Shown here: in pieces, positions 4,563 through 15,437 of the stretch
How the letters are laid out: each line of letters starts with the position of its first letter
Numbering within the stretch: position 1 is the first letter of the stretch
Origin: Bryobacteraceae bacterium
GTDB taxonomy: Bacteria > Acidobacteriota > Terriglobia > Bryobacterales > Bryobacteraceae
Assembly: GCA_025980435.1 (NCBI GenBank)
Contig: JAICXK010000006.1
Span: 1 to 48,241 of the forward strand
Reading direction: 5' to 3'
Length of the DNA stretch: 48,241 nt
Notes under the pieces: model-generated
The model's database searches: none
Seen by the model: only the letters and a program-made list of their open reading frames with translations
Told to the model about the DNA's origin: nothing
Program-made: the position numbers and the translations under genes

Positions 4563-4829
4563 TCAACTAACAGCGGTATGGCGCCGCCGAAAAATCGCAT
4601 GGTAGACGACTAGTACGACTATTGCGCCTACAACAGCGACAAGGAGGCTGTATAAATTTAGGCCGGTTACACCGGATGCTCCGAAAGCACTGAACAAATA
4701 ACCGCCTACCACCGCACCGACAATACCAAGCACGATGTCGAGGATCAGCCCGTCACCGTGTTTGTTCACTATCTTGCTGCCTATAAAGCCAGCAATCAAA
4801 CCAAGAATAATCCATGCAAGAAAAGACAT
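4563..4829 (-). CDS. GlsB/YeaQ/YmgE family stress-response membrane protein
   Basis: An 88-residue integral membrane protein with three hydrophobic segments (about residues 2-20, 28-50 and 58-80) and the family pattern IILGLIAGFIGSKIV, then DIVLGIVGAVVGGYLF. This is the 'transglycosylase-associated protein' family, often induced by envelope or osmotic stress; the molecular role is unknown. It is the third gene of a tight minus-strand set after the BON protein and the YflT-like protein, with only 12 bases from the previous stop. An AGAGGA ribosome site sits about 7 bases before the ATG. Length is normal for the family. Confidence 0.88.
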   Translation of the reverse strand: MSFLAWIILGLIAGFIGSKIVNKHGDGLILDIVLGIVGAVVGGYLFSAFGASGVTGLNLYSLLVAVVGAIVVLVVYHAIFRRRHTAVS

Positions 4830-4841
4830 GATAGGTCCTCT

Positions 4842-5429
4842 TCAGAGCCTACTGCTGCCCACAGGTACGCGAGCATTGTCAACTTTGTCCGTAACGCCGT
4901 GCGTGCTGACAGACTTTTCTCCAGCCGACGATATATCCTCAGCGCCGGACGCCTTCAAGACTTCCTTTGCCGAATCGATTTCGGTAGATGTGTCGCAATG
5001 CACCGAAAGCAGAACACCGCCATTCTTGATCCGGCCTTCATAACGCTTCGCCTCATACTCTGGGATACCCATCCCAACGAGTGCCCCAACCAGGCCGCCC
5101 ACCGCTCCGCCCACTCCTAAGCCTGCGAGTGCACCCATGATTGGGCCGGCTGCGATGAATGGACCGACTCCGGGAATTGCCAAAGCGCCGATGCCGGCGA
5201 GTAACCCGAGCGTTCCTCCCACAACTCCTCCGGCTGTGACACCGGTAGTTGCGCCCTCTGGAGCTTTCGTGTTCTTCTCGTGTGCGAATTCCTTTGAACT
5301 CTGATTATCCGGGAGCAAAACGGATATGTCCCGATGAGCGAATCCAGCCGCAGTCAAGCGGTCCACCGCTTGCTCCGCCTGAGTGCTCGTGGGGTAGATC
5401 CCGAAAACCGCTGTATTTTTTTCTGCCAT
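4842..5429 (-). CDS. General stress protein (YflT/17M-like) with glycine-rich membrane-like core
   Basis: 195 residues. Residues 5-45 (AVFGIYPTSTQAEQAVDRL, then GFAHRDISVLLPD) match the domain of Bacillus general stress protein YflT/17M. The middle, about residues 60-115, is a long glycine/alanine-rich run (GGVVGGTLGLLAGIG, GLGVGGAVGGLVGALVGMG) resembling glycine-zipper membrane segments. The end (residues 120-160) contains GGVLLSVHCDTSTEIDSAKE, the second half of the alpha-beta fold. Such proteins are induced by general or cold stress in various bacteria and probably associate with the envelope; the biochemical role is unknown. The gene follows the BON gene by 24 bases and precedes the GlsB gene by 12, with a strong AAAGGAAA ribosome site, so the three are very likely one operon. 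Confidence 0.8.
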   Translation of the reverse strand: MAEKNTAVFGIYPTSTQAEQAVDRLTAAGFAHRDISVLLPDNQSSKEFAHEKNTKAPEGATTGVTAGGVVGGTLGLLAGIGALAIPGVGPFIAAGPIMGALAGLGVGGAVGGLVGALVGMGIPEYEAKRYEGRIKNGGVLLSVHCDTSTEIDSAKEVLKASGAEDISSAGEKSVSTHGVTDKVDNARVPVGSSRL

Positions 5430-5453
5430 AGTATTTTCCTTTACTTACTTCAA

Positions 5454-5855
5454 TTACTTCTGTTCACCCTTGACGGTCAGTTCGTCTATGACATTGCCGT
5501 CTCCGGCGACCCTGCGAGCATACTGTTCAACAGTGTTTTTCTCATCGTCGGAGTGGACCGGGCCTTTCAGTGTGACTTTTCCATGTTCCGAGATGATTTT
5601 GACATTGTGAGCGTACGTGGAAAGCGACTTGTCTTTGACCACCTCGCGCCTAATCCGCCGCATTACCTCGCGGTCGGACAAATTATTCTTTCCCTGGTCC
5701 GCAGTTGGCTCGGTACTCTTGCGGTCTCGTTGATTTACCTTTGTGTTGTCCGGAGCAGGCTGTTGCGTGTCTTGCCGCGCTAGGGCATTCCCGGCTATCA
5801 GAAATGCGCTGGTGAATGCTACCCCGCACACGAGTGACTTGAAACTTCGATCCAT
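5454..5855 (-). CDS. Exported BON-domain protein
   Basis: 133 residues from the ATG at 5855, chosen because a signal peptide (SLVCGVAFTSAFLIAGNALA) and an AGAGGA ribosome site directly follow and precede it; an upstream GTG frame extends to 5948 but adds an unlikely leader. After a low-complexity linker rich in Gln, Asp and Lys, residues about 63-130 form one BON domain: DREVMRRIRREVVKDKSLS, VKIISEHGKVTLKGPVHSD and a closing VIDELTV. BON domains bind phospholipid in periplasmic proteins such as OsmY. It is the first gene of the stress operon and probably protects the envelope, which is inference from OsmY-like relatives. Confidence 0.85.
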   Translation of the reverse strand: MDRSFKSLVCGVAFTSAFLIAGNALARQDTQQPAPDNTKVNQRDRKSTEPTADQGKNNLSDREVMRRIRREVVKDKSLSTYAHNVKIISEHGKVTLKGPVHSDDEKNTVEQYARRVAGDGNVIDELTVKGEQK

Positions 5856-6804: not shown

Positions 6805-9800
6805 TTACCCAGGAATCGTAAAGCGAAGCGTGGATCCCCGCCCATACTCGGACTCCGCCCAAATCCTGCCCCCCTTACGCTCCACGATTCTTTGGCAAAT
6901 CGCCAGTCCAATGCCGCTGCCAGGGTGCTCCGATCCGTGGAGACGTTTGAAGGGTGTAAAGATAGTCTCTAAGAAGGCCGCTTCAATGCCAAGGCCATTG
7001 TCGGCCACGGAAAAAGTCCATACGTTGCCGCTCGGCTGCGCCGAGACATGTACCCGCGGCGGCTCGCCCGGCCGGTGATACTTCAGCGCGTTGCCAATCA
7101 GATTTTGGAAAAGCAGCACCAGAGGAACTTCTTCCGCCATAAGCGTGGGCAAAGGATCGTGCGTAACAACTCCAGCGCTGTCCTGGATTGCGACGACAAG
7201 AACGTCGAGCGCCTTCGCCAGAACGCCATTACAGTCAGTAGGAATAGGCTGTTGCCGCTCTTGTTCGCTAACCGACCAATATTCACGCAGGCTGCTCAGC
7301 ATCGCTTCCATCCGCTGAACGCCTTGAACCGCGTACTCGATAAACTGATCTGCTTGCTGGTCGAGCTTGCCCTTGTATTTCCTCGCAAGCAGCTGCGTGT
7401 AGTTCGCCACCATGCGCAGCGGTGCCTGCAGATCGTGGGATGCTGCGTAGGAGAAGTGCTTCAGATCCGAGTTGAGGCTCTCCAGTTCCTTCTTACTCTG
7501 TCGAAGCGCCTCTTCCAAAAGCTTCTGCTCCGAGATGTCGCGGACAATCTTCGAAGCGCCGATGATTCTGCCGGAGCTATCCAGGATGGGAGAGACCGTC
7601 AGCGATACCGTAATCGTCCGCCCCTCTTTTGTGAGCCGCCTGGTCTCATGCTGGTCAATGCGCTCACCGCGGGAAATGCGCTCCAGGATGCTAGGCATCT
7701 CGTCGAGGCGCTCGGGTGGGGCGAGAATCGAAACGTTTTTCCCAATAATCTCCTCTGCCGAATAGCCGAATATCCGTTCCGCTCCACGGTTCCAGGTCCG
7801 AATGATCCCGTTGAGGTCCTTGCTGATAATGCCATCGTCTGTCGATGTAACGATGGCGGCGAGCCTACCCTTGAGTTCCTCCACGCGTTTGCGCTCGGTG
7901 ATGTCTTTGAAGATAACCGCGACGCGACGGCCCGTTTCGTCTTCGACCCGAAAGGCGTAGAGTTCCAACACGCGCCCATGCGTGGCAAGATCGCGTTCAA
8001 ACCGGAGTGGTACGCCGGTTTTGACAATGGCGTCATATGTTTCAAACCATTCCTCAGGTTCGCCCGGAAATGCCTGCCGGATGGTTTTCCCGACCACGCC
8101 ACCCACGCCGGTTTGCATCTCGAACGCCGGGTTAGCCACGATGTAGCGAAAATCCAGCGGCCCGTCCGTTCCGGCCCCAACCTTCTCGATGATGCAGAAG
8201 CCTTCGTCAATGCTCTCGAACAGCGTGCGGTATCTTCCCTCGGAAGCGCGCAAGGCATCTTCGCTCTGCTTGCGCTCGGTAATGTCCTCGATCGCCAAAA
8301 GGATCAGCGGCCCCCCGCTATTTTGCCGCTCCATGATGCGGCCGTTTAGCAGCATCGTTCTCCGTCCGATCTCTTTAAAATCGTGTTCGACCTGAAAGTC
8401 GTCGAGAATTCCTTTTTGTGGGAGCAGTTCAGTCAATACGCGCCGCAGCTCCCCGATGTCCCACTGCGCATTGCCGAGCTCGTACAGAACTTTGCCCTCG
8501 GTTTCATCCGCCGTAACCCGAAACTCCTCGTAGAACGACCTGTTGGCGGACTGCACGCGCAAATCGGTGTCCAGCACCAGGAGCGGTTCTCGCACGGTCT
8601 GGACAATATTCTCCGCGTAAACCTTCGCATCCACGGCGCGCCGCTCGGCCTCTTTAAGCTCGGTCACATCGGTGAAAGTGATGACCACGCCATCGATCAC
8701 GTTATGCACGGTGCGGTAAGGCAGGATGCGCATCTGATAATGCAGCCCACCTTCTCCGGCTAGCTGCCGCTCGCGCGTGGAGAGCGATTTGAGCACATCC
8801 CTGATGTCCTGCGCGAGGTCGGCGTCATGGAACCGTGCCGCCAGATTTGTAATGGGCCGCCCAACATCGCCCGCAATCAGTCGAAACATGCCGACTGCGG
8901 CGGGCGTAAAGCTCTTGATGCGAAGCTCACCATCCAAAAAGATAGTGGCGATCTGCGTACTCTCGAGCAGATTCTGCAAATCGCTATTGGCTTTATCCAG
9001 TTCGGCAACTTTGCGGTTGAGCTCGGTGTTGACGGTTTCGAGTTCCTCGTTGAAGGACTGGAGTTCCTCCTTGGAGGTCTCCAACTCTTCGTTCGTCGAT
9101 TGATACTCTTCGTTTGTGGATTTTAGCTCCTCATTCGAAGTTTCCAGCTCTTCAAATGCCGCTTGCGCGTGCTCCTGGGCAGCCCTGAGCTCACTTTCGA
9201 GGTGCTGGATTATTTCCTCAGAACTGGCATCCGGTGCCGGCGTCTCGCCGTGTTGCGGGGTGCGGCCAGAAAGCGCATCCTCGAACACGATCATGTAGAG
9301 GTTCGCCGGCTGGAATTCGGTGAGCGGTTCCACGGTGATGTCAACAGAACTCACTCCGCCGTTCGTTTGAACGGAAACGTCCTTCTGAACAACGCGCTCA
9401 TGAGTGGTCGCCGCATGATGCAGGGCCGTGCGCAAAGGAATCCGCAAGCCTTCCTTCGCCATATTGATCACGTTGCTCTCCGGGCTTCCTGTCGGCTGTT
9501 CCAGGTAGCGGCTCGTGCGGCCGAAAAAATAAACGGCGTCTCCGTTCCCCTGAACCGTGATGCACGCTGGCCGGTATCGCCGCAAAATGATGCGTTCTAA
9601 CTGTTTGGGGAGTTCTCGCTCTTCCGCTTCGAACTGCGTCTCCTCCGGCTGCTTTGCGCGGCTGCTGTCCGCTAGCGGAAAACGAACCGCCGGGCGAGGC
9701 AGACTTCCCTTCTTCTGGAAAATCCTGTGCTTCTTGTCCAACACCCGGAACAGCCCGAGCTGCGCTGCGGCACTCTCCGACGGGCCCAGAAACAGATACC

Positions 9801-11217
9801 CGCCGGAACGTAACGCGTAATGGAAGAGCGGGATGATCTTCCGCTGCAGTTCCGGCCCCAGATAGATCATCACGTTGCGGCAGGAGATCAGATCCAGACG
9901 TGAAAACGGAGGGTCCTTGATGAAACTGTGGGTGGAGAAGATACAGCTCTCACGAATGTCCCGTTTCACCTGGTACGCGTGATCCTGCTTGATGAAGAAG
10001 CGCTCCAGACGTTCGTGGTTCACGTGCTCCGCGATGCCCTCCGGATAGCGCCCTTTGCGCGCCATCTCCAGCCCTCGTTCGTCGATATCGGTGGCGAATA
10101 TCTTTATCCGGGGCGGATTGTCCAGCGGCGACGCATGCTCACATAGCAGAATGGCGATCGAGTAGGCTTCTTCTCCGGATGCGCATCCCACCACACAGGC
10201 GCGGATCTCGTCGCCTGAGCCTTTGCCCTCAAACAGCTTGGGAATCACCTCGCGTCCAAGCGCCTCGAATGCCTCGGGGTCGCGAAAGAACTGGGTCACT
10301 CCGATCAGCAGATCCTTGAAGAGCCGGTCCACCTCTTCTGGTTGGCGCTCCAACGTCCGGACATACTGCTCGACGCTATCAATCTGTAACGCTTTCATGC
10401 GGCGGTCCAGCCGCCGTACGATGGTGCTCTCTTTGTACTGGCTGAAATCGTGACCGGCTTTTCGCCGCAGCAAGCCGTGGATCTTGCCAATATGCGCGCC
10501 TATCTGCTCGCGGATACTGCCCGGCTTACCGTCGAATGAATGCAGGTGAGCGCCATACTCCAGGAGCTTTGCCGGCATCTCTTCCACCGGCAGCACATGA
10601 TCCACCAGACCTGTTGCGATGGCGCTCCGAAGGATCGCGTCGTATTTGGCGGAGTCAAGGGTCTGTGCCATGGCCATACCGCCGCGTTCTTTGATCTCCC
10701 GCAGGCCGAGCGTGCCGTCCGTGCCAGTGCCCGACAGCATGATGCACACGGCGTTTTCGCCGCGATCTTCCGCCAGGGAACGGAAGAGGCTATCGATCGG
10801 CGTGCGGTGGCCGCGAGGCTCAACTGGCGCCTCCACTCCTAACCTGCCGTTTTTAATAGTCAGTGTGGCGCCCGGCGGAATGATGTAGACGCGGTCGGGT
10901 GCGACCTCAAGGTCATCGCGGGCCTGCTCGACAGTCATATCCGTGCATCTCGCCAACAGCTCCGGCAGGGCGCTTGTACGATCGGGGGCAAGGTGCTGGA
11001 CGATGATAAACCCAATACCGGAATCGGCCGGCATGTGTTTGAAGAATTTTTCGAGGGCCTCCAGGCCGCCTGCGGAAGCGCCCAACGCCGCGATCAGGAG
11101 CTGCTTCGAGTTCGCTTTGTCCTTGCGCATTTGCCTGCTCCCCCAGGCAGGGCTCTCCATCGGAGATAGCGCAGCCCGTTCTTGTTCGGTGGCCGGTAGT
11201 GCTTTTTTCTTCGCCAT
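6805..11217 (-). CDS. CheB-CheR-PAS hybrid sensor histidine kinase
   Basis: A 1,470-residue multi-domain protein. Residues about 40-225 form a CheB methylesterase domain with the triad Ser48 (GASAGG), His75 (VQHLAPD) and Asp167 (SGTGTDG). CheR N-terminal and SAM-binding methyltransferase domains follow at about 240-500, with VVGCASGEE near 345 and SCRNVMIYL further on. A long Glu/Leu/Asn coiled coil (about 668-746, repeated EELETSNEELKSTNEE units) leads into three or more PAS domains (to about 1225). The C-terminus is a histidine kinase: phospho-acceptor His near 1259 (YAASHDLQAPLR) and ATPase motifs DNGLGIE and GSGIGLAI. There is no receiver domain and no CheA/CheW nearby. Such soluble fusions likely link methylation-type adaptation to a two-component output; the signal and partner are unknown. 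All key residues are present, so it should be active. Confidence 0.93.
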   Translation of the reverse strand: MAKKKALPATEQERAALSPMESPAWGSRQMRKDKANSKQLLIAALGASAGGLEALEKFFKHMPADSGIGFIIVQHLAPDRTSALPELLARCTDMTVEQARDDLEVAPDRVYIIPPGATLTIKNGRLGVEAPVEPRGHRTPIDSLFRSLAEDRGENAVCIMLSGTGTDGTLGLREIKERGGMAMAQTLDSAKYDAILRSAIATGLVDHVLPVEEMPAKLLEYGAHLHSFDGKPGSIREQIGAHIGKIHGLLRRKAGHDFSQYKESTIVRRLDRRMKALQIDSVEQYVRTLERQPEEVDRLFKDLLIGVTQFFRDPEAFEALGREVIPKLFEGKGSGDEIRACVVGCASGEEAYSIAILLCEHASPLDNPPRIKIFATDIDERGLEMARKGRYPEGIAEHVNHERLERFFIKQDHAYQVKRDIRESCIFSTHSFIKDPPFSRLDLISCRNVMIYLGPELQRKIIPLFHYALRSGGYLFLGPSESAAAQLGLFRVLDKKHRIFQKKGSLPRPAVRFPLADSSRAKQPEETQFEAEERELPKQLERIILRRYRPACITVQGNGDAVYFFGRTSRYLEQPTGSPESNVINMAKEGLRIPLRTALHHAATTHERVVQKDVSVQTNGGVSSVDITVEPLTEFQPANLYMIVFEDALSGRTPQHGETPAPDASSEEIIQHLESELRAAQEHAQAAFEELETSNEELKSTNEEYQSTNEELETSKEELQSFNEELETVNTELNRKVAELDKANSDLQNLLESTQIATIFLDGELRIKSFTPAAVGMFRLIAGDVGRPITNLAARFHDADLAQDIRDVLKSLSTRERQLAGEGGLHYQMRILPYRTVHNVIDGVVITFTDVTELKEAERRAVDAKVYAENIVQTVREPLLVLDTDLRVQSANRSFYEEFRVTADETEGKVLYELGNAQWDIGELRRVLTELLPQKGILDDFQVEHDFKEIGRRTMLLNGRIMERQNSGGPLILLAIEDITERKQSEDALRASEGRYRTLFESIDEGFCIIEKVGAGTDGPLDFRYIVANPAFEMQTGVGGVVGKTIRQAFPGEPEEWFETYDAIVKTGVPLRFERDLATHGRVLELYAFRVEDETGRRVAVIFKDITERKRVEELKGRLAAIVTSTDDGIISKDLNGIIRTWNRGAERIFGYSAEEIIGKNVSILAPPERLDEMPSILERISRGERIDQHETRRLTKEGRTITVSLTVSPILDSSGRIIGASKIVRDISEQKLLEEALRQSKKELESLNSDLKHFSYAASHDLQAPLRMVANYTQLLARKYKGKLDQQADQFIEYAVQGVQRMEAMLSSLREYWSVSEQERQQPIPTDCNGVLAKALDVLVVAIQDSAGVVTHDPLPTLMAEEVPLVLLFQNLIGNALKYHRPGEPPRVHVSAQPSGNVWTFSVADNGLGIEAAFLETIFTPFKRLHGSEHPGSGIGLAICQRIVERKGGRIWAESEYGRGSTLRFTIPG

Positions 11218-14249: not shown

Positions 14250-15437
14250 CTATGCTGCCGCCTTGCGTGCCGACATCCGGTCATACAACTCGGCGGCAAT
14301 CCGGACTGCCGCTTCAGCCTCCTCCCGGTCCGGATTCTCGTTCGCGTCATTGTAGCCATCCGCTTCGTTCAGCGCGTGAGCCTGTACCACGATCCCATCC
14401 CGCCGTCCGAGGATCACGAGATCTTTATAGATCACGCCGTAATTCACCTCGGGCTGTGGAATCAGCCAGGCGATTTGGCCGCGGACGGGAATGATGGATT
14501 CATCGTTCCAGAGCGCTCGCGCTCCATAGCCGGTTGCATTGATCGCTATATTCTGCGGCAGCTGGGCTAATTCCGAGGGGGAGTGAAACTCTCTCTGCTC
14601 AATCCTCCCACCCTCGATTAAGAAATCGGTGACGAGTTGCTTTGAATAAGCCGCTATATTGAACGTCAGGTCTGAAGTCCTACGCGCGAAACGAGTCGGG
14701 AACGGATGGGCGCCGGGAGCCAATTCCTGCAACTGCGGAATCACATCCGCGATGCGGCTGCCGTAGTGAGCGAAGTCCAGGCTGCCAGGGCCTTCGTGTG
14801 CCCCGCCCGCTTCTGCCGGCGCGTCGGAAAGCATATAGAAATCCTTCCACTCGATAGGATCGCCAGCCACGCCCAAATAGCTTGCATACATCTGCAGTGA
14901 TTTTCGGGCCATTTTCTCCCAGAGAGCAGGAAAGCCCGGCGACACGGAGCTGGACAAGGCTACTCGCGAATCCGGCGTAAACGCTCCCGTTGCACGCGAG
15001 GATCGCACATCCGGCGGACGTTCCTTCGCGTAGATTGTTACCTTTGCACCGGCGCGCTGAAGCAGGGTCGCCGAGGTAAGCCCCAGTGCTCCGCAGCCGA
15101 TCACGGCGATTTCGTGCTCTCCCGTCGACAGCGCCTTCTCCGTGGCAATGCTGCTCGACCCCCACGACAGCGACCATCCGCTTCCACCATGACCGTAATT
15201 GTGAATGATCGTCTTGTCACCCACCCGTTCGACATCCAGACGAGGACCGGCCGCGCGAAACGGCCGTAAGCACACAGTTGTTCGAAAGATCCTATCTATA
15301 TCCGCGCGAATGGGCGCTACTTGTAATGCGGGACTCGGCCGCGGAGCAGGCGCAACAACGCTAGCGGTTCGCCTCGGCGCACAACCTGCAAGAGTAAGTG
15401 CACCAAGACTGCCGAGAAAATTGCGTCTGTTCAACAA
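14250..15437 (-). CDS. Exported FAD oxidoreductase of the D-amino-acid oxidase family, apparently circularly permuted
   Basis: 395 residues. The start MLNRRNFLGSLGALTLAGC combines a twin-arginine motif with a lipobox, so it should be a Tat-exported lipoprotein anchored at Cys19. Residues 54-92 read TVCLRPFRAAGPRL and IIHNYGHGGSGWSLSWG, which are the substrate-arginine and flavin-binding motifs that close the C-terminus of D-amino-acid/D-aspartate oxidases. The Rossmann FAD motif, VIGCGALGLTSATLLQRAG, comes only afterwards at 112-130. The C-terminal end (VILGRRDGIVVQA, then NPDREEAEAAVRIAAELYDR) corresponds to the part normally preceding LRPxR. The order is thus rotated. All expected pieces are present once, so an active oxidase producing H2O2 in the periplasm is plausible, with the substrate unknown. 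It stands alone, before the penicillin-binding protein gene on the same strand. Confidence 0.85.
   Translation of the reverse strand: MLNRRNFLGSLGALTLAGCAPRRTASVVAPAPRPSPALQVAPIRADIDRIFRTTVCLRPFRAAGPRLDVERVGDKTIIHNYGHGGSGWSLSWGSSSIATEKALSTGEHEIAVIGCGALGLTSATLLQRAGAKVTIYAKERPPDVRSSRATGAFTPDSRVALSSSVSPGFPALWEKMARKSLQMYASYLGVAGDPIEWKDFYMLSDAPAEAGGAHEGPGSLDFAHYGSRIADVIPQLQELAPGAHPFPTRFARRTSDLTFNIAAYSKQLVTDFLIEGGRIEQREFHSPSELAQLPQNIAINATGYGARALWNDESIIPVRGQIAWLIPQPEVNYGVIYKDLVILGRRDGIVVQAHALNEADGYNDANENPDREEAEAAVRIAAELYDRMSARKAAA

Follow-up and report, generated by a model that had tools for sequence, protein, structure and literature searches.

A probable circular permutant of the D-amino-acid oxidase fold with a Tat-type leader in a Bryobacteraceae bacterium, and the permuted family to which it belongs

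The 48,241 nt stretch of DNA that was analysed here, referred to as the window (contig JAICXK010000006.1 of Bryobacteraceae bacterium, assembly GCA_025980435.1), contains a gene whose product carries the motifs of D-amino-acid oxidases (DAAO) in a rotated order, and raises the question whether this protein is a genuine circular permutant or has acquired its unusual order in another way. The gene (14250..15437, on the minus strand, like all its parts given below) was delimited by its open reading frame, a Pfam DAO match and a structural model, and comprises 395 codons and a stop codon, with a TTG start. Because the N-termini of close relatives of the protein read MNRR or MKRR, translation more probably begins at the second TTG (15434, 394 aa). 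The earlier note on this DNA had claimed that the LRPFR motif and the flavin loop precede the FAD motif, and this order is indeed seen: LRPFR occupies residues 57-61 (15255..15269), the HNYGHGG flavin loop occupies residues 79-85 (15183..15203), and the Rossmann GxGxxG motif, here GCGALG, is located at residues 114-119 (15081..15098).

The interpretation of this order as a circular permutation, proposed in the same note, gains support at the sequence level from swapped matches to proteins of solved structure, a rotation test, and the existence of a permuted family. In a phmmer search of PDB sequences, residues 50-101 aligned with residues 320-371 of D-amino-acid oxidase 7ct4 (i-E 3e-7), while residues 107-326 aligned with residues 23-243 of the same chain (i-E 5e-4); consecutive pieces of the query match the tail and then the head of 7ct4, and therefore their order is swapped. 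Residues 39-97 matched residues 301-356 of 9vpf (i-E 1.2e-6), and the same swapped order was found, more weakly, with 6rkf (i-E of the front piece 0.014). The rotation test employed a profile of 12 ordinary-order bacterial homologues and 75 rotation points in 5-residue steps. In the native protein, profile positions 2-194 fell on residues 109-327, and positions 255-304 on residues 39-96. Rotation at residue 105 increased the score of the best single domain from 80.9 to 126.2 bits, and rotations near the junction (residues 90-120) produced a single collinear domain, whereas the summed whole-sequence score remained nearly constant (132.4 native vs. 133.0 rotated), which is what a pure rearrangement should give. 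The top score reported for 20 shuffled sequences was -0.3, which, together with the swapped PDB matches, argues that the order is not a product of chance.

The translocated C-terminal module, with the substrate-Arg strand, the flavin loop and the closing helix, could be assigned to residues 46-104 (15126..15302) based on PDB matches, rotation and the model. It is followed by the junction of the old C-terminus with the old N-terminus at residues 104-108 (15114..15128), as indicated by the rotation optimum at 105, the end of a modelled helix at 103 and the start of a strand at 109. The remaining part of the protein is the oxidase body (residues 109-395, 14253..15113; Pfam, model and rotation), which starts at the old N-terminus and runs as far as the helix ordinarily preceding LRPxR, so that the chain ends before the usual LRPxR position, as had been claimed. 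The Pfam DAO profile matches residues 110-386 (E 1.8e-21) only up to its position 298 of 353, which fits a chain in which the last part of the domain lies elsewhere.

In the AlphaFold model, built with a 46-sequence alignment (mean pLDDT 91.5, pTM 0.86), residues 50-103 are predicted to form three strands and a helix (block pLDDT 95-99), with the closing helix of the module at residues 91-103, while residues 1-30 are modelled with low confidence (block pLDDT 51-55). The top match among solved structures in a Foldseek search was human D-aspartate oxidase (DASPO) 6rkf (E 1.7e-12, TM 0.55/0.64), followed by D-amino-acid oxidases, and by glycine oxidases and others with E-values of 3e-7 or weaker. 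The moderate TM values are expected, since a sequential aligner presumably follows only part of a permuted chain. That the window protein keeps the D-aspartate/D-amino-acid oxidase fold is thus indirectly supported by the predicted structure. With the DAAO/DASPO family (PF01266 DAO; 7ct4, 6rkf, 1an9), the protein shares the fold, GxGxxG, the substrate Arg of RPxR and HNYGHGG, but differs from it in the rotated module order, the Tat lipoprotein leader, Cys56 in place of Gly, and V341 in place of Tyr. Sarcosine and glycine oxidases (1el5, 1ryi) have a related fold, and sarcosine oxidase has a Cys in the Cys56 column, but these enzymes are not permuted, and glycine oxidase 4ysh is a more distant match (E 4e-7) than DASPO.

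The closest non-permuted sequences that we found are ordinary-order bacterial homologues from Acidobacteriota (L107-L110, L116, L117, L129), Actinomycetota (L137-L141) and Vibrio (L142). They share an LRPxR-type motif and HNYGHGG with the window protein, with one HCYGHGG and one LRAFR variant among them, but their GxGxxG lies near the N-terminus, their module is C-terminal, and no leader was noticed in them by eye.

A search for homologues with the same rotated order revealed a large family. Among 100 genomes near that of the window, its own included, ten encode relatives at E <= 1e-10, and a scan of 84,980 species genomes confirmed at least 571 relatives. The best 80 of these at least 571 come mostly from Acidobacteriota and from Alpha- and Gammaproteobacteria, with one from Opitutaceae; each has a single HNYGH(G/S)G, and all 80 are permuted and devoid of a second copy. 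A strict order pattern is passed by 68 of the 80, the other 12 failing through variant or extra GxGxxG matches. Profile typing of 119 proteins (the 80 and others; the window protein is counted twice, also as L118, as is one relative, L006 = L023) assigned 112 as permuted, 105 by set thresholds and seven from printed coordinates, and seven as ordinary. None of the 119 contained two C-terminal modules, in agreement with the claimed lack of duplicated pieces, and a duplication with an intact C-terminal copy is thereby ruled out. In Acidobacteriota, an HNYGHGG DNA pattern was matched in 35 of 396 sampled genomes; 30 of the 38 matches were examined as loci, of which 22 are permuted (window included), seven are ordinary, and one (L128) is unreadable. 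Acidobacteriota thus contain both forms. Among 17 genomes with permuted genes, one, that of Caulobacter D5, also encodes a full-length ordinary-order relative. One permuted relative, with a gene 51% identical to that of the window, lies in a contig whose title assigns it to a Klebsiella pneumoniae MAG (L096), a label that looks doubtful for this family.

The breadth of this family bears on the explanation that an ordinary gene has been duplicated or frame-shifted here, or that the assembly is at fault. The window gives no support to it, and what speaks for it is limited to a permuted gene split between two frames in Mesorhizobium and a partial extra copy in another genome. Against it stands the permuted order in 80/80 of the best relatives, which come from many assemblies, named isolates included, as well as in the 15 loci L153-L167, for which 299 Pseudomonadota genomes were searched separately. 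With the order permuted family-wide, an assembly artefact is excluded, and we regard the probability of this explanation as a whole as negligible. In Mesorhizobium onobrychidis (L106), the split gene consists of two overlapping frames (4735-5022 and 5019-5798, plus strand) and is broken at the Rossmann motif. The partial second copy (G017:C62:15502-15780, L009/L013) repeats the permuted gene in its 3' part and follows the full copy at a distance of ~1 kb on the downstream side.

Phylogenetic analysis placed the ordinary and permuted sequences on opposite sides of one branch, with support of 100/100 in a tree of 59 rows and 100/99 under a mixture model in a tree of 57 rows. The rows were chosen from a larger set, clade B (the subclade of the window) was thinned for the 57-row tree, the split Mesorhizobium gene was left out, and the root was assumed; both trees contain one long ordinary row (L129) and four ordinary rows of odd letter make-up. 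The trees need only one change of order and are consistent with a single permutation behind the family. A different origin, in which domain shuffling brought in the front module from another oxidase and the old tail disappeared, would predict a conflict between the parts of the protein. The shortness of the module (45 columns) leaves room for this scenario, as the tree of the module is weakly supported (75-82). However, the module-only and body-only trees separate the same three groups of sequences, ordinary, sister-subfamily and exported, and the module and the body match one ordinary-order profile with complementary coverage (positions 255-304 and 2-194, respectively). As no member of the typed set carries two modules either, we consider domain shuffling very improbable.

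The earlier note had described a Tat leader with a lipobox, and its elements are present in the window protein: RRNFL at residues 4-8, a hydrophobic stretch, and LAGC with Cys19. This Tat-type leader comprises residues 1-19 (RRNFLGSLGALTLAGC; 15381..15437) and was assigned from the sequence and from the conservation of R4, R5 and C19, which are invariant in 10/10 sequences. The match of the window protein to Pfam TAT_signal lies below the cut-off (15.2 vs. 22.7 bits). By pattern, the twin Arg is present in 74 of the 80 loci, and in 40 of the 80 it is accompanied by a lipobox.

The sister subfamily (Rhizobium ruizarguesonis WSH67949.1, Nonomuraea, L153, L154 and L181) is permuted like the window protein and forms a sister branch in the trees, but it is mostly leaderless: the proteins of Rhizobium, Nonomuraea, L154 and a viral contig have no leader, and that of L153 has one. 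It differs from the window protein also in the Gly that precedes L/V-R-P in the two rows counted. A query from this subfamily matched 15 of the 299 Pseudomonadota genomes, and all 15 loci (L153-L167) are permuted. As the permuted sister subfamily is mostly leaderless, the rearrangement is separable from export.

While the module order unites the family, the active site divides it. In the 7ct4 enzyme (ReDAAO), substrate-binding residues include, according to extracts of PMC6697736, Arg308, Gly335 and Tyr244. Assuming a chain offset of 20, the Arg and Gly would correspond to R58 and G85 of the window protein, and both are kept in 59/59 rows; R58-P59 is, by alignment, the putative Arg-Pro pair for the substrate carboxylate. 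The Tyr column, located via Y228 of pig DAAO through L116, is occupied in the window protein by V341 (14415..14417). Tyr is found there in nine of the 12 ordinary rows, in ten of the 18 clade A rows (with His in the other eight), and in three of the 27 clade B rows, 12 of which have Ser. Strict conservation of the substrate Tyr is denied in the available part of PMC9844085, where GxRPxR and YGHGGxG are given as bacterial DAAO signatures. The second of these is present in the window protein (YGHGGSG, residues 81-87), whereas the first is broken and reads C56-L-R-P-F-R. Cys takes the place of the first Gly of GxRPxR in 80/80 clade B loci, while this Gly is found in 12/12 ordinary rows, and also in clade A (in this tally, 2/45 counts are slips of the pattern). 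These differences would mean that the substrate pocket in the subclade of the window has been reshaped. Because of the departures in module order, GxRPxR and the Tyr column, we label the protein a permuted DAAO-fold flavoenzyme and not a D-amino-acid oxidase.

Cys56 (15270..15272), which is invariant in the subclade of the window, falls by alignment in the column of sarcosine oxidase Cys315. When the ordinary-order alignment was compared by hhalign with a pair of sarcosine-oxidase-like proteins (probability 95.6, E 1.3e-8), the printed columns placed the Gly of GxRPxR opposite Cys311 of one of them, which in turn aligns with Cys315 of 1el5. We take this Cys315 to carry an 8alpha-S-cysteinyl FAD; our literature search returned nothing on sarcosine oxidase Cys315. 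Reference titles of PMC12052999 mention a covalently bound flavin in monomeric sarcosine oxidase. Covalent attachment is linked to redox potential in the portions of PMC12052999 and PMC4148704 at hand, and according to the latter, it is unpredictable from fold or sequence. The invariant Cys56 in the Cys315 column and the mostly lost Tyr of this subclade are new here, as is a gene of a secreted cytochrome c directly downstream in one group of relatives.

These features may suggest that clade B proteins, while having the same permuted fold, are not D-amino-acid oxidases but periplasmic dehydrogenases that hold FAD covalently on Cys56, act on another amine or acid, and pass electrons to a cytochrome c. 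Besides the Cys56 and Tyr columns, the gene neighbourhood speaks for this alternative. Of 82 loci examined, 80 had enough downstream sequence; in ten of these 80, a CxxCH protein whose N-terminus resembles a signal sequence is encoded directly downstream on the same strand, its gene starting at -29 to +14 nt from the gene end, and Pfam recognised cytochrome c in 4/4 of these neighbours that were checked. However, the five of these ten loci that are present in the 59-row tree form one branch (100/99), and the cytochrome neighbour is limited to this one group of relatives and is absent beside the window gene. Moreover, the flavin-carrying role of Cys315 is taken as background, the sarcosine oxidase profile consists of two sequences, and the unpredictability of the covalent link applies here as well. 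We therefore regard this alternative as possible but doubtful. The Cys56, the mostly lost Tyr and the cytochrome c downstream in one group nevertheless leave the D-amino-acid oxidase activity of the window protein putative.

The reading that we prefer, and which we consider probable, is that the product of the window gene is a true circular permutant with the D-amino-acid/D-aspartate oxidase fold, which is exported and acts on a substrate resembling an amino or imino acid. In this protein, the ~55 residues with which the ordinary enzyme closes stand at the start of the chain, and about five residues join them to the old N-terminal Rossmann strand. The protein would fold and take up FAD in the cytoplasm, be exported in the folded state by the Tat system, as its motifs suggest, and become lipid-anchored on Cys19. 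There, during oxidation of the substrate, R58 would hold its carboxylate while the flavin takes up the hydride; O2 would serve as the electron acceptor, or a dedicated cytochrome c in some relatives. For the subclade of the window, a covalent bond between FAD and Cys56 is a candidate addition to this scheme. All these steps would take place outside the cytoplasm. A bolder scenario, in which a single ancient permutation founded an exported flavoenzyme family and the subclade of the window went on to become a Cys56-tethered, cytochrome-c-linked periplasmic dehydrogenase, is put forward tentatively, as it is rather unlikely to hold in full.

The rotated family offers a natural experiment in the rewiring of a reference flavoenzyme, D-amino-acid oxidase. 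The presence of ordinary and permuted forms in one phylum provides natural pairs in which the effect of chain order on folding, FAD uptake and Tat export could be compared. Should Cys56 hold the flavin and cytochrome c serve as the acceptor, the family would be a clean case of the conversion of an oxidase fold into an extracytoplasmic dehydrogenase. In a published approach to DAAO searches, as given in the accessible text of PMC9844085, the GxGxxG fingerprint must be N-terminal. In the window protein, this motif follows the C-terminal module, at residues 114-119, and searches that use such a rule would pass over the permuted family. No word containing "permut" occurs in PMC9844085, as far as its text was available, and no description of a permuted D-amino-acid oxidase family was found among the matches listed in a search of open-licence PMC articles by titles and abstract openings. 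A "D-amino acid oxidase" is named among proteins found with Asaia in the excerpted part of PMC12502724.

The wider neighbourhood of the permuted genes is varied, and no majority neighbour emerged among the 80 loci. The largest clusters are those of TonB receptors, c-type cytochromes and PF00144 serine hydrolases (seven each; Pfam was run on examples of the TonB cluster and on one member of the PF00144 cluster), followed by sensor kinases and response regulators (six each) and two more clusters of five. The PF00144 family includes D-aminopeptidases. The surroundings of the permuted gene in Kozakia comprise serine hydrolases, those of PF00144 among them, an S9 peptidase, another DAO protein, a cytochrome c and a TonB receptor, and a large protein encoded nearby in the L153 genome weakly matches M23 peptidases. 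Genes of this kind suggest that peptides or amides are taken up and degraded outside the cytoplasm. The window gene itself is flanked, according to Pfam, by genes of a penicillin-binding protein upstream and a Na/Ca exchanger downstream. The flanking genes were not found at the loci of 14 relatives (L017 and L023 represent one locus, and part of the flanks were short), the sole match being a kinase gene (26%, L024); since the flanks are not common to relatives, an operon or a link to peptidoglycan at the window was rejected. Elsewhere in the window, positions 6805-11217 (minus strand) encode a CheB-CheR-PAS-histidine kinase fusion of 1470 aa.

In Rhizobium, Mesorhizobium and Nonomuraea, the permuted gene is adjoined by a gene of a TPP-dependent enzyme, for which decarboxylation of a 2-oxo acid product would be a possible role; no such gene was present among the L153 and L154 neighbours examined. 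On a Rhizobium plasmid (L104, 3473-7699, plus strand), genes of a berberine-type FAD oxidase, the permuted oxidase and the TPP-dependent enzyme follow in succession, and perhaps constitute a small pathway. No permuted gene was found in an annotated phage collection, and four permuted-gene loci lie in viral contigs. In two of these (L181, 126-1415, and L180, 1926-3014, both plus strand), a leaderless permuted gene is located directly after a gene of the terminase large subunit (PHROG E 1.9e-93), and is possibly carried by a phage or prophage. A BFVD fold search returned a phage FAD oxidoreductase (E 5e-8).
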